Shown: positions 12,336 to 27,320 of the stretch, in pieces | Layout: each line of letters begins with the position of its first letter | Numbering within the stretch: the first letter of the stretch is position 1 | Source: an uncultured Lachnospiraceae bacterium | GTDB taxonomy: Bacteria > Bacillota > Clostridia > Lachnospirales > Lachnospiraceae | Direction: 5' to 3' | Assembly: GCA_949740535.1 (NCBI GenBank) | Contig: CATJHO010000114.1 | Span: 1-40,849 of the forward strand | DNA: 40,849 nucleotides | Position numbers and translations under genes: made by a program | The notes under the pieces: model-generated | Seen by the model: the letters and a program-made list of their open reading frames with translations, nothing else | Databases searched by the model: none | Told to the model about the DNA's origin: nothing

Positions 12336-12370
12336 AAAAAGAACGCCCTTTCAAAATCTGAAAGGGCGTT
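12336..12370 (-). terminator. T-box regulated terminator
   Basis: 12-bp stem with a 5-base loop followed by CTTTTTC on the minus strand. The 5' arm lies just after the T-box sequence, as required for the terminator/antiterminator switch. Confidence 0.9.
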
Positions 12371-12588
12371 TGAACGCGGTACCACCTGTCTTATATGCAG
12401 AGTATGCATATATCTCTATAACCCATTAACGCTGGTTATGCGTGAGCAGTTACTTCTGGTTCACCGCTCCGGCTCCAAAGCTACCTCCACAGCCGCTTTC
12501 TGAAGGGAGCTCTCAGCCTGTGGCTCCCTCTCTCTGACAGTTGCATCTTCTGTGTACCCTCTTTTTCTACGCCTTTTCCTTTTTGCTA
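12336..12588 (-). promoter_or_regulatory. T-box leader upstream of valS (tRNA-Val sensing)
   Basis: The minus strand carries the T-box core AGGTGGTACCGCG (12387-12375). It is followed directly by the terminator hairpin with which the antiterminator competes: 12-bp arms 12342-12353 and 12359-12370, then a T run. Upstream, a stem I region contains GGGAGC...GCTCCC around a GGCTGAGAG loop typical of T-boxes. A GUA valine triplet at 12484-12482 is a candidate specifier, not proven. Uncharged tRNA-Val should stabilise the antiterminator and allow transcription of valS, folC, the 49-residue ORF and the TPR gene. Confidence 0.92.
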
Positions 12589-20529: not shown

Positions 20530-20640
20530 TGATAATCAAATCCCCTTATTGTTCGATTACTCGCTCAGGCTGGCACCTTCCATCGCTGGGGTTGCCGTGA
20601 CTTCATAGATCCTTTGTATCTCCATCACTCTGAATAAGAG
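20530..20640 (-). promoter_or_regulatory. SAM-I (S-box) riboswitch aptamer
   Basis: On the minus strand the S-box hallmarks appear in order. CTCTTATTCAGAG and the GATGGAG segment (20640-20615) come first, then ATGAAGTCACGGCAACC, then GGAAGGTGCCAGCCTGAGCGAG, and AATAAGG closing helix P1 near 20535. The terminator lies immediately downstream, so SAM binding should stop transcription of metK. Confidence 0.96.
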
Positions 20641-24618: not shown

Positions 24619-26271
24619 TTACGACTGCTGCATTACGCTTACCAGTGCGGGAATCAGCTGTTTTTTCCGGGACACAAGGCCCTTCAGCTCATAGCTGTCA
24701 GAATCCTCCGGCAGCTGAAATGCCTCCCGGACCAGACTGTCAGAGTTAGGCCCATAGCAGAGAAGCTCTGTGGTCTCCTTCACAATATTGGTGAGCATAA
24801 AGAAAATCATATTTAAGCCGATTTCTTTATAAGCCTCTTCCAGGTAAGGAAACAGTTTCTCCCGAATCTCTCCAAGCTCAATGGCATTCATGGAATTAAT
24901 CTGGCCCACTGCAAATTCCACGCCGTTCACGCTGAACCGCTTGAAGTCCTGATAGAAGATCTCCTGAGCCGTCCGGGATCCCAGATTGCTGCCTGCGGAG
25001 AACATGTCAATGGCCAGCTCCTCAATCTCGATTTCCGCAATCTCTGCCAGAGCTTCCGCCGCCGCCTTATCCACCGCCGTACAGGTGGGGGACCGGAACA
25101 TCAGCGTATCTGAGATAATTGCCGCACAGAGAAGCCCGGCAATCTTCCTTGGAATCTTTACCCCTCGTTCCCGGTACATCTGGTACATAATGGTTGCCGT
25201 ACAGCCCAGCGGCTGATTTCGGAAAAATACCGGGGACATGGTCTCCAGGGAACCAAGTCTGTGATGATCGATAATTTCCAGAATTTCTGCAAATTCAATT
25301 CCATCCACAGCCTGGGATTCCTCATTGTGATCCACCAGAATCAGCCGTTTCCGCTTCAGATTCAGCAGATTACGCCGGGAAATCATTCCCACATAATTCT
25401 CCTCCTTATCTACGATCGGAAAATCCCGGTACCGCTTCTGTCCCATGATCTCTTTGATATCCTCTGTCTTCTCGCTGACATTGAAGATCGTAAGATTATC
25501 CGACTTCATAAAGTACTGAATCGGCATACTCTGATTGATCAGCCTTGCTGCCGTAAAGGTATCATGGGGCGTACTGATTACCACGCAGCTGTGCTCCTCT
25601 GCCAGCTTTCGAATGGTAATAGAAACCTTGGCTCCCTCGCAGACAATGATACAGCCCGCACGCATCTCTATGGCACAGAGCTGGGATTCGTAGCGGTTTC
25701 CAAGAATAACCAGATCCCCCTCCTCAATGTAATCCTCCATCAAATCCGGGTTTGCCGCAGCAATCAGTACTTTTCCCCGGTTATAATACTCCTCCTCAGA
25801 ACCCACCAGCATACAGCCTTCCAGTGTCTCCACGATATTGCGGTACTGGGTATTGGCTGTAGAAAGAATCTTGCTGTCATAGACATCCATATAGGAAGTA
25901 GCGATATCTCCAATGGTAATAAGGCCTTCGATCTTTCGATCCTTTGTGATCGGCAGCGTCACCACACCCAGATTACGCATGAGGTTCCAAGCCTGCTTCA
26001 GCGAAAGATTTCCTCTGACACCTTCTGTTTTTCGAATCTCAATATCCTTAACCTGTGTCATTACATCCGCAACATAAACCGGAGCTTCTGCCTGGAAGAA
26101 ATTCAATACATACTGGGTCTCCTGGTTAAGCTGGCCCGCTCTTGCCGCAATATAACCGCCGCCCTCCAGCTGATTTTTCAGATACGCATAAGCCAGTGCG
26201 GAACAGATTGAATCTGTATCCGGATTTTTATGGCCGATAATATAGACCGGCCTCGTCACATCTTTTTCCAT
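24619..26271 (-). CDS. Manganese-dependent inorganic pyrophosphatase with CBS and DRTGG domains
   Basis: A 550-residue family II pyrophosphatase, hydrolysing PPi to phosphate in the cytosol. The DHH core has GHKNPDTDS near the N terminus, VDHNE near residue 315 and the IIDHHR motif near 335. The DHHA2-type tail has the SRKKQLIPAL motif. Between N-terminal and catalytic halves lie a CBS pair, split by a DRTGG domain, with ITIGDIATS and GMISRRNLL ends. Such inserted domains bind adenine nucleotides and regulate the enzyme. A TTG five codons upstream is possible, but the ATG at 26271 has a GAGAGGA site. Confidence 0.95.
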   Translation of the reverse strand: MEKDVTRPVYIIGHKNPDTDSICSALAYAYLKNQLEGGGYIAARAGQLNQETQYVLNFFQAEAPVYVADVMTQVKDIEIRKTEGVRGNLSLKQAWNLMRNLGVVTLPITKDRKIEGLITIGDIATSYMDVYDSKILSTANTQYRNIVETLEGCMLVGSEEEYYNRGKVLIAAANPDLMEDYIEEGDLVILGNRYESQLCAIEMRAGCIIVCEGAKVSITIRKLAEEHSCVVISTPHDTFTAARLINQSMPIQYFMKSDNLTIFNVSEKTEDIKEIMGQKRYRDFPIVDKEENYVGMISRRNLLNLKRKRLILVDHNEESQAVDGIEFAEILEIIDHHRLGSLETMSPVFFRNQPLGCTATIMYQMYRERGVKIPRKIAGLLCAAIISDTLMFRSPTCTAVDKAAAEALAEIAEIEIEELAIDMFSAGSNLGSRTAQEIFYQDFKRFSVNGVEFAVGQINSMNAIELGEIREKLFPYLEEAYKEIGLNMIFFMLTNIVKETTELLCYGPNSDSLVREAFQLPEDSDSYELKGLVSRKKQLIPALVSVMQQS

Positions 26272-26333
26272 TCCTGTTCCTCTCAAATTCCTGTTCTCAT
26301 TTTTATTGAAATATTTTCACCTATAACTTCTTC

Positions 26334-26445: not shown

Positions 26446-26499
26446 TTCACAATAAGTTCACAATGTATTCATACTTTATTCACATTTTGCTGATATACT
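26446..26499 (+). promoter_or_regulatory. Pho-box-like direct-repeat promoter pointing right
   Basis: Four hexamers TTCACA, TTCACA, TTCATA and TTCACA start at 26446, 26457, 26468 and 26479, an exact 11-bp period. They are followed by a TATACT -10 at 26494-26499. Tandem TTHACA-type hexamers with 11-bp spacing in front of a -10, replacing the -35, are the PhoP binding arrangement known in Bacillus. No protein gene lies downstream on this strand until 28452, beyond strong terminators. Confidence 0.72.
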
Positions 26500-26505
26500 G
26501 AATTT

Positions 26506-26700
26506 ACGTTAAAGGAAGGAATACCTTCTTAGAAAAACCGCTTTCATTACACATATAGATAAATTTTTTCATAATAGCCTCGGCGTACTCAGTACGTCGG
26601 GGCACTCCTCATTGTGCGCGTCTGCAATGAGCAAGGCGCCTTAGAAAAAAACAAAACCTGAACAGGGAGCTGGCTCACTGGGCAGGTTTTATTTTTTCTC
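26506..26700 (+). ncRNA. Candidate structured non-coding RNA behind the Pho-box promoter
   Basis: Predicted transcript of about 195 bases with no start codon placed after the AAAGGAAGG stretch. It contains a nearly perfect 12-bp stem (26578-26589 with 26591-26602) and a 7-bp stem (26608-26614 with 26625-26631). It ends in an intrinsic terminator: arms 26653-26660 and 26683-26690, then ATTTTTT. Existence as an RNA is inferred from promoter plus terminator; sequence homology to known RNAs was not recognised. Confidence 0.45.
26645..26698. terminator. Bidirectional terminator between lepB and the pyrophosphatase gene
   Basis: Arms AAAACCTG and CAGGTTTT (26653-26660, 26683-26690) have a T-run on either strand: ATTTTTTC to the right and GTTTTTTTC to the left. 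It can end lepB transcription from the right and the candidate RNA from the left. Confidence 0.85.
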
Positions 26701-26701
26701 A

Positions 26702-26748
26702 GGCATGCGGCGAATGCCGCGAGCTTGAAAAGCCAACGGCTTTTCAAG
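26702..26748. repeat. Palindromic repeat cluster downstream of lepB
   Basis: Two adjacent perfect hairpins: GCGGC-GAAT-GCCGC (26707-26720), and an 11-bp stem with a 3-base loop (26724-26734, 26738-26748). The 17 bases at 26703-26719 occur again inverted at 40402-40418, so this is part of a dispersed intergenic element. Confidence 0.7.
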
Positions 26749-26786
26749 CCTGTCCCTGCGGACTCCTATCCTCTATTTCTGTCTTC

Positions 26787-27320
26787 TCACCTAGTCAGCC
26801 CCAAATGCAGAAACACCCGCCCTGCAATCTCTTCCTCTCCCACTCCGCCATACTTCCTGGAATCCTCAGAACCGGCCCGGTTATCCCCCATTACAAAAAA
26901 GCTCCTGGCAGGCACATCATAAGGGAACACAATTCCTTCTTCTGCTGGTTCCGTCCCCAGACAGGTCTCCCCGTCTATTACAAGCAGCCCCTCTTCATTT
27001 AAATCTATCCCCGCTCCGCCGCAGGCCGCAATCCGCTTCACTTCCGGAGGCAGACTCCCCCGTCTGACAAGCACAATATCTCCCTTTCCATAGTTTTGCT
27101 CCAGACGGTAGAATACCACCAGTTCTCCCTGTCCCAATACCGGCTCCATGGAGTTTCCTTCCACAAACGCAATACCAATCACATAGTGGAATATGATATA
27201 GAAGGTCAATGCCATAAGCAGGCATCCCAGTACAAACTGCTTCCATTCCCGCCTGCGTTGAAGCCCGTCTATTTTCTCTGCCAGAATCTCCTCCGGATTC
27301 TGTTTTGTGTTCTTTCCCAT
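26787..27320 (-). CDS. lepB: Signal peptidase I
   Basis: A 177-residue type I signal peptidase that cleaves signal peptides of secreted proteins at the outer membrane face. The cytosolic N terminus is followed by one membrane helix (about 29-51). The catalytic Ser57 is in GNSMEP and the general base Lys95 in VKRIAA. Box E is GDNRAGSEDSR near residue 145. The length is normal for the short Gram-positive form. It starts 14 bases after the coiled-coil gene, hence an operon. Confidence 0.95.
   Translation of the reverse strand: MGKNTKQNPEEILAEKIDGLQRRREWKQFVLGCLLMALTFYIIFHYVIGIAFVEGNSMEPVLGQGELVVFYRLEQNYGKGDIVLVRRGSLPPEVKRIAACGGAGIDLNEEGLLVIDGETCLGTEPAEEGIVFPYDVPARSFFVMGDNRAGSEDSRKYGGVGEEEIAGRVFLHLGLTR

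Follow-up and report, generated by a model that had tools for sequence, protein, structure and literature searches.

PhoP-activated promoters of Bacillus carry direct repeats with an 11-bp period that end ~9 nt before the −10 element, and the PhoP box has the consensus TT[A/T/C]A[C/T]A. The csRNAs of Streptococcus belong to the CiaRH regulon; in the available part of their description (PMC3091779), their promoters carry the 11-bp repeat TTTAAG-N5-TTTAAG with a −10 element some ten bases on, the RNAs end in terminators, and they hold unpaired sequence that could base-pair with both Shine-Dalgarno sequence and start codon. LhrC of Listeria, in the part of its description that is available (PMC4132741), is present in five copies with UCCC motifs in loops and in a linker, and no LisR binding consensus is known according to that text.

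Here we describe a locus on a contig of an uncultured Lachnospiraceae bacterium (CATJHO010000114.1); the whole stretch of 40,849 nucleotides that was analysed is called the window below. As shown by conservation across homologous loci, a predicted short, non-coding RNA of the plus strand is transcribed from a promoter that combines an extended −10 with as many as four TTCAyA-type half sites at 11-bp spacing. We describe this promoter and RNA, weigh the regulators that might activate it, and consider what the RNA may do.

Promoter and predicted transcript

The locus comprises the following features; homologous loci are counted over a set of 104 (23 automatic loci, 60 fetched, and 21 from the DNA search).

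24619..26286, minus strand: manganese-dependent inorganic pyrophosphatase (DHH, DRTGG, CBS, DHHA2), divergent neighbor, by profile search
26446..26484, plus strand: operator of OmpR/PhoB-type direct repeats, read from the sequence (TTCACA 26446-26451, TTCACA 26457-26462, TTCATA 26468-26473, TTCACA 26479-26484)
26491..26499, plus strand: extended −10 TGaTATACT (TATACT at 26494-26499 with TG ahead), 9 nt beyond the last hexamer
26506..26697, plus strand: small RNA of ~190 nt, supported by a fold test, its start inferred from the −10 and its end from the terminator
26513..26530, plus strand: 5′ hairpin AGGAAGG / CCUUCUU, by fold prediction, its sequence varying between species
26556..26616, plus strand: conserved core, 85.8 bits with covariance model R1, the window sequence being one of the 21 from which the model was built
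26564..26574, plus strand: anti-start segment UUUUUUCAUAA, the complement of UUAUGAAAAAA; T(5-9)CATAA in 104/104 loci, all selected by a model containing the segment or by DNA match
26577..26603, plus strand: central hairpin GCCUCGGCGUAC-UCA-GUACGUCGGGGC, by covariation in 11/12 pairs
26602..26612, plus strand: anti-Shine-Dalgarno segment GCACUCCUCAU; CUCCU[CU] in 104/104 loci, selected in the same way
26646..26697, plus strand: intrinsic terminator hairpin and T run, by fold prediction, probably common to the convergent signal peptidase gene
26787..27320, minus strand: signal peptidase I, convergent neighbor, by profile search

The four TTCACA/TTCATA hexamers that a first-pass annotation had reported ahead of a TATACT −10 are borne out by direct reading and by a shuffle test. 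Their starts (26446, 26457, 26468, and 26479) keep an exact 11-bp period, and the four-box score of the window, 24/24, is reached by 0/100 dinucleotide-preserving shuffles (mean 16.2). A three-box pattern searched over the 84%-complete assembly of the window matches exactly in two overlapping registers of this operator and nowhere else. Across the aligned homologous loci the four-box score is matched by five or fewer of 100 shuffles in 103/104, and the three-box score in 99/104. The gap between the last box and the −10 is 9 nt in 103/104 loci and TGn precedes the −10 in 80/104, as placed by a joint fit of boxes and −10 that allowed gaps of 8-10, gave a small bonus for 9 and for TG, and was run without a shuffle control. 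The two inner boxes read TTCAyA without mismatch in 80/104 loci and agree at 5/6 or better in 99/104; the latter holds for 58/60 additional loci, which are model-confirmed finds of an RNA-pattern scan (73, minus 12 identical to earlier loci and one without upstream sequence). Among the 208 inner half sites of the 104 loci, 153 read TTCATA and 28 TTCACA, while the outer ones read TTCACA, TTTACA, TTCATA, or TTAAC-like. A simple promoter/terminator scanner missed both the −10 and the terminator of the RNA and gave instead a TTCACA/CATACT pair within the repeats; its rules omit activator-type promoters and hairpins with internal loops.

The whole RNA of the window folds better than 200/200 shuffles (z = −4.9). 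After the promoter come the 5′ hairpin, a U-rich stretch, the central hairpin, which is strong, and one more hairpin ahead of the terminator; where two stem-loops had been described ahead of the terminator, the minimum-energy fold has three. The Shine-Dalgarno-like AAAGGAAGG noted at 26511-26519 is present, but lies mostly within the 5′ hairpin (26513-26530). The terminator placed at 26653-26698 was recovered as a hairpin with a T run after it (26646-26697), and the interval between it and the promoter reads as non-coding, in agreement with the earlier statement that it holds no plus-strand gene; indeed no plausible plus-strand gene occurs before 28452, the plus-strand ORFs there being antisense to minus-strand genes. 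The RNA has its own promoter, non-coding sequence, and a terminator, the features by which a trans-acting sRNA is recognized, with a terminator-like hairpin within 170 nt past the core in 40/104 loci, against 3.4 expected from shuffles; some of the hairpins so counted may belong to the convergent gene. What stands of the proposed phosphate-starvation sRNA of ~195 bases is therefore a terminated non-coding RNA of ~190 bases behind 11-bp repeats, with PhoP as its activator unsettled.

Distribution and covariation

By DNA search, a 281-base stretch of the locus matches 15/15 other genomes of the same genus, all of which carry both promoter and RNA. Matches were found in 21 of the 61 genomes searched: the window's own, these 15, and five of other genera, in three of which the match is to the core alone. 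Outside the family, the 24 genomes searched from the same order gave no DNA match. An orphan promoter left after loss of a pst operon, the other explanation that the first-pass annotation had offered, is ruled out: besides the 15 same-genus genomes, the homologous loci read keep the box followed by the same RNA, and not by pstS as that explanation had envisaged.

The covariance-model search proposed for the Lachnospiraceae recovered the RNA in 119/397 genomes and 103/334 genera with model R1 (built from 21 sequences). Both figures are probably lower bounds, because the family was drawn evenly and the filters were strict. The conserved core (26556-26616) had not been singled out earlier. Apart from one genome with two copies, every carrier found with the model has a single copy, and named genera with the RNA include Blautia, Roseburia, Butyrivibrio, Eisenbergiella, and Lactonifactor. 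A scan of 84,980 species genomes with an RNA pattern gave at least 118 stretches, and 73 of the 80 loci retrieved match the covariance model; the other seven, which include both records labeled as outside Bacillota, are apparently chance finds, and viral contigs gave no match to the pattern. Some divergent copies score poorly with the model, namely L454, L450, and L455 (E = 0.0004, 0.01, and 0.05) and, more tentatively, L452 and L464 (E = 0.75 and 2.4). These copies, clearly in the first three and tentatively in the other two, keep UUUUCAUAA and the hairpin together with an anti-Shine-Dalgarno sequence of CUCCC type in place of CUCCUC. Among the 120 model matches, 30 lie outside the 104-locus set, 28 with E values of 5.8e-7 or weaker and two near contig ends; seven automatic duplicates were also left out, as was L030, which is a second and short match within G010. 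Alignment A3 covers 98 of the 104 loci and A4 the remaining six.

The central hairpin is maintained by compensatory change. Among 97 distinct sequences, aligned by fitting to the covariance model, 95.2% of the 1128 hairpin pair cells hold standard pairs, and 11/12 pairs have changes on both sides. There are 195 double-change cells versus 44.6 in shuffles, and slid registers drop to 33-45%. A smaller MAFFT alignment (A2), not fitted to the model, has 245/245 cells paired (100%) and double changes in 7/12 pairs; on four of the five measures it is equaled by 0/500 shuffles, and on the fifth by 66/500.

No family of Rfam (release 15) exceeds its gathering threshold over the window RNA or in 20 homologous loci, and a relaxed scan gave matches solely far below the thresholds. 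Elsewhere in the window, on the minus strand, a T-box leader (12359-12578) and a SAM riboswitch (20543-20640) score above Rfam thresholds. The listings of a literature search that covered mostly non-subscription papers showed none describing an RNA of this type in Lachnospiraceae. On the evidence of these comparisons this is a previously uncatalogued RNA kept across the Lachnospiraceae, and its gene and promoter have as much support as can be had from sequence.

The genes around the RNA were compared in fetched flanks of 1.5-2.5 kb around the 104 loci. The neighbor in the window is a pyrophosphatase, as had been noted, but its synteny with the RNA is merely local, the pyrophosphatase cluster occurring in the fetched upstream flank of 22/104 loci. 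It is preceded in frequency on that side by a protein without a Pfam match (44/104 loci). The commonest downstream cluster, found in 50/104 loci with 45 members convergent and five not, is a RelA/SpoT-domain protein, as called from one member tested (PF04607). The RNA thus retains its own promoter across loci whose neighbors differ. In the window, GC-rich inverted repeats, CGGCGAATGCCG and CTTGAAAAGCC...GGCTTTTCAAG, separate the terminator from the signal peptidase gene (26700-26760), and L012 and L015 have similar sequence after the RNA.

Candidate activators

The activator is likely a two-component regulator of the OmpR/PhoB class. Among the matches listed in a search of 46 genomes for the inner pair and −10 are the RNA itself, response-regulator operons of several genera, and an HtrA-type protease. 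One regulator/kinase operon of the genus to which the window belongs has a TTCACA-N5-nACATA box and an extended −10, a pattern present in at least 14/16 genomes of the genus. The identity of these genes was read in L386 (1061-1869, contig C45 of the window's own assembly) and L389 alone; the L386 regulator has PhoB as its best NCBIfam model and the L389 kinase has PnpS, both below cut-off. This operon is possibly self-regulated, and its regulator is a candidate activator of the RNA. A further site in the window's own assembly, at 1029-1339 of L385 (contig C115), consists of TTCATG-N5-TTCATA and a TATACT −10 before the gene for an 81-residue protein, and sites like it occur in six other genomes of the genus among the matches listed.

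Whether the RNA belongs specifically to the PhoP regulon, and is induced by phosphate starvation, is unsettled, and we regard it as on balance doubtful. The RNA operator fits the PhoP consensus, repeating TT[A/T/C]A[C/T]A directly every 11 bp ahead of the −10, with four boxes, of which the outer ones are TT[CTA]AC-like. Nevertheless, its half site differs from that of the pst promoters of the same clade. A TTTACA/TTAACA-type (TTWACA) pair is present at 11 or 12/12 in 16/16 pstS upstream regions of related genomes, where a TTCAyA pair scores above 10/12 in 0/16. (These regions come from 12 + 4 loci, three of the four being identical, which leaves 14 distinct, and all are from assemblies other than the window's own.) At the RNA loci, on the other hand, the TTCAyA pair is present at 11 or 12/12 in 102/104, and the inner boxes have C at position 3 in 104/104 (box −2) and 100/104 (box −1), unlike the pstS boxes; a TTWACA pair at 11 or 12/12 is also found in 24/104 loci, which speaks for PhoP. 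The gene content of the carriers argues the other way: 13/30 RNA-carrying genomes have no PstS match at E ≤ 1e-30, and one of them (G395, 99% complete) has no PstS candidate at all. No PstS match was found in the window's own assembly (84% complete). PHO boxes do vary from promoter to promoter within one species, according to the available part of one study (PMC4415409). In favor of PhoP, the regulator operon of the genus, with PhoB and PnpS as below-cut-off best models, has a TTCACA-type box. PhoP is thus one candidate, neither shown nor excluded.

It is possible, though we think rather unlikely, that the RNA serves an envelope- or secretion-stress regulator with a role like that of CiaR, LisR, or CssR, and that HtrA belongs to the same regulon. 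The csRNAs and LhrC are under such systems in the available parts of their descriptions (PMC3091779; PMC4132741). In five genera among the matches listed, genes for HtrA-type membrane-anchored proteases (L398, L399, L400, L401, and L404) have a TTCAyA-type pair and a TAAAAT −10 resembling the RNA promoter; HtrA was identified by profile in L399, by protein match in L398 and L404, and by eye in L400 and L401. As a general rule HtrA co-regulation is rejected, since 0/29 HtrA upstream regions from further genomes reach 11/12 and 3/29 reach 10 (gene starts were script-chosen, and L432, in which the gene start is missing, was omitted). Predicted pairing is likewise not concentrated on secreted proteins, and these are not supported as targets: among 1054 predicted genes of one genome, the top 50 predicted duplexes hold five signal-peptide genes versus 5.8 with shuffled seeds. 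Signal-peptide genes do pair a little better on average than the others (P = 0.04), with a gap as large in 3/60 shuffled seed pairs. This preference lies in the anti-start segment alone (P = 4e-6; anti-Shine-Dalgarno segment, P = 0.89) and stems from MKK starts, hence it gives no support to secretory targets. In L446, L448, and L463, from three genera, TTCATA repeats lie ~100 bases upstream of a gene that by eye is phosphofructokinase-like.

Pairing segments and possible action

Two near-invariant segments flank the central hairpin: UUUUUCAUAA, a start-site complement, and GCACUCCUC, a Shine-Dalgarno complement, the latter found in this exact form in 99/104 loci, of which all were chosen by a model containing the segments or by DNA match. 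The mean unpaired probability over the 104 loci is 0.68 for the anti-start and 0.62 for the anti-Shine-Dalgarno segment, compared with 0.47 for the whole RNA, and it exceeds 0.5 in 84% and 62% of loci, respectively. In the minimum-energy fold of the window, part of the anti-Shine-Dalgarno segment pairs downstream. Read as antisense, the segments face UUAUGAAAAA and GAGGAGUGC, which, once the hairpin is looped out, are ordered and spaced as in a ribosome-binding site. In L071 and L092, the anti-Shine-Dalgarno segment is followed, just beyond the core, by sequence nearly complementary to the anti-start segment, so in that genus the 5′ segment could be masked by the RNA folding back on itself.

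We consider it reasonably probable, and the best reading of these sequences, that this is a regulator-activated trans-acting RNA pairing with ribosome-binding sites, a mode of action already proposed for the csRNAs of streptococci. The four-site promoter with its extended −10 would transcribe the short plus-strand non-coding RNA, which a response regulator of the OmpR/PhoB family, binding the repeats, may turn on under some stress. As near-invariant and mostly unpaired sequence suggests, the RNA could then pair with ribosome-binding sites through both segments: the anti-start segment UUUUUCAUAA, 5′ of the hairpin, would face UUAUGAAAAA, and the anti-Shine-Dalgarno segment CACUCCUC, 3′ of it, would face GAGGAGUG, with the hairpin bulging out opposite the spacer and translation initiation blocked. 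Start sites of other messages are probably what the RNA blocks. A seed-pairing test over the start regions of 1054 predicted genes, taken from 1.2 of the 3.19 Mb of one genome, gives weak support, with a mean of −15.8 for the real seeds versus −13.8 (SD = 1.0) for shuffled seeds and 2/60 shuffles as good.

A more far-reaching proposal, which we make tentatively, is that the RNA acts across the family as a split antisense clamp, whose 3′ segment would grip the Shine-Dalgarno sequence and whose 5′ segment would grip the start codon and the lysine codons that follow it. If true, the clamp would act as a general brake on translation in Lachnospiraceae, by which one stress regulator lowers the output of many messages, and would not be dedicated to a single gene. 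The family ranks among the commonest in the gut, and a single-copy RNA found in 103 sampled genera, with an operator and two predicted pairing segments, would offer a direct handle on the regulator and the stress that control translation in these bacteria.

A conserved target was sought with several patterns, and none emerged from them. The strict two-part pattern ATGAGGAGTN{3,12}ATGAAAAA occurred in 14/250 genomes and gave no conserved target. A geometry pattern, GAGGAGTGN{0,8}TTATGA, occurred in at least 121/299 genomes, and the 30 loci read are scattered genes among which tryptophan synthase genes (two trpA-like and one trpB-like, by eye) are the sole repeats. The perfect ribosome-binding-site target GAGGN{5,16}ATGAAAAAATTTAT, sought in 21 genomes, was found at the RNA's own locus in 13 and at two other places. 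Citrate synthase, histidinol-phosphate aminotransferase, and arginyl-tRNA synthetase recur by eye, as at most putative candidates, among 20 of ~106 pattern places and 30 automatic loci.

The strict conservation of the segments could also reflect protein binding, and the RNA would then be a scaffold for a protein such as a chaperone or translation factor, without pairing to mRNA. Single-stranded flanks that hardly vary, on either side of a hairpin that covaries freely, are in keeping with this, as is the outcome of the target search. We nonetheless regard a scaffold as unlikely, given that the divergent copies alter the 3′ segment yet retain an anti-Shine-Dalgarno sequence.

Strand and coding potential

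A trans-acting RNA transcribed from the plus strand, the reading preferred here, agrees with the wobble pairs of the hairpin: there are 162 G-U cells versus six A-C cells on the plus strand (A-C there being G-U on the minus strand), and the RNA therefore lies on the plus strand. A coding small ORF is rejected on either strand, judging from the 104 loci: the minus-strand ORF MKKFIYMCN... ranges in length from three to 38 codons with variable tails, and on the plus strand a Shine-Dalgarno sequence with an ORF is found in 11/104 loci, the ten offsets listed being all different. It is scarcely credible that the conserved block instead belongs to the minus strand, as a leader or a small ORF (MKKFIYMCN...) oriented toward the gene for the pyrophosphatase: although ATGAAAAAATTTATC is preceded by GAGG on that strand and 68/104 loci begin MKKFI, the ORF varies in length and tail and has no Pfam match, the wobbles suit the plus strand only, the plus-strand promoter is conserved, and the pyrophosphatase cluster is missing from the fetched flank of 82/104 loci.

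Comparison with known systems

The promoter resembles the PhoP-activated promoters of Bacillus in its TT[A/T/C]A[C/T]A repeats, its 11-bp period, and the ~9 nt to the −10. It differs from them in that its product is an RNA, and related pstS promoters in the Lachnospiraceae carry TTTACA-type pairs.

A looser likeness is to LhrC, as far as the available part of its description goes (PMC4132741): both would be two-component-dependent RNAs with C/U-rich segments, and the block of translation initiation described for LhrC is predicted here. Unlike LhrC, with its five copies and its UCCC motifs in loops and linker, the Lachnospiraceae RNA is mostly single-copy.

The csRNAs, in the part of their description available (PMC3091779), differ in several respects. 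The RNA described here has as many as four half sites, of TTCAyA type, and the csRNA operator TTTAAG-N5-TTTAAG is absent, so that by the operator test it is not a csRNA. It is present in one copy per genome, whereas there are several csRNAs, and it belongs to a different bacterial family. Its anti-start and anti-Shine-Dalgarno segments also stand on opposite sides of a hairpin, unlike those of the csRNAs in that source. The likeness, which we draw from the description of the csRNAs, would be one of design: in both cases a small RNA stands behind a response-regulator-type promoter with an 11-bp repeat, carries unpaired anti-Shine-Dalgarno and anti-start sequence, and ends in a terminator.
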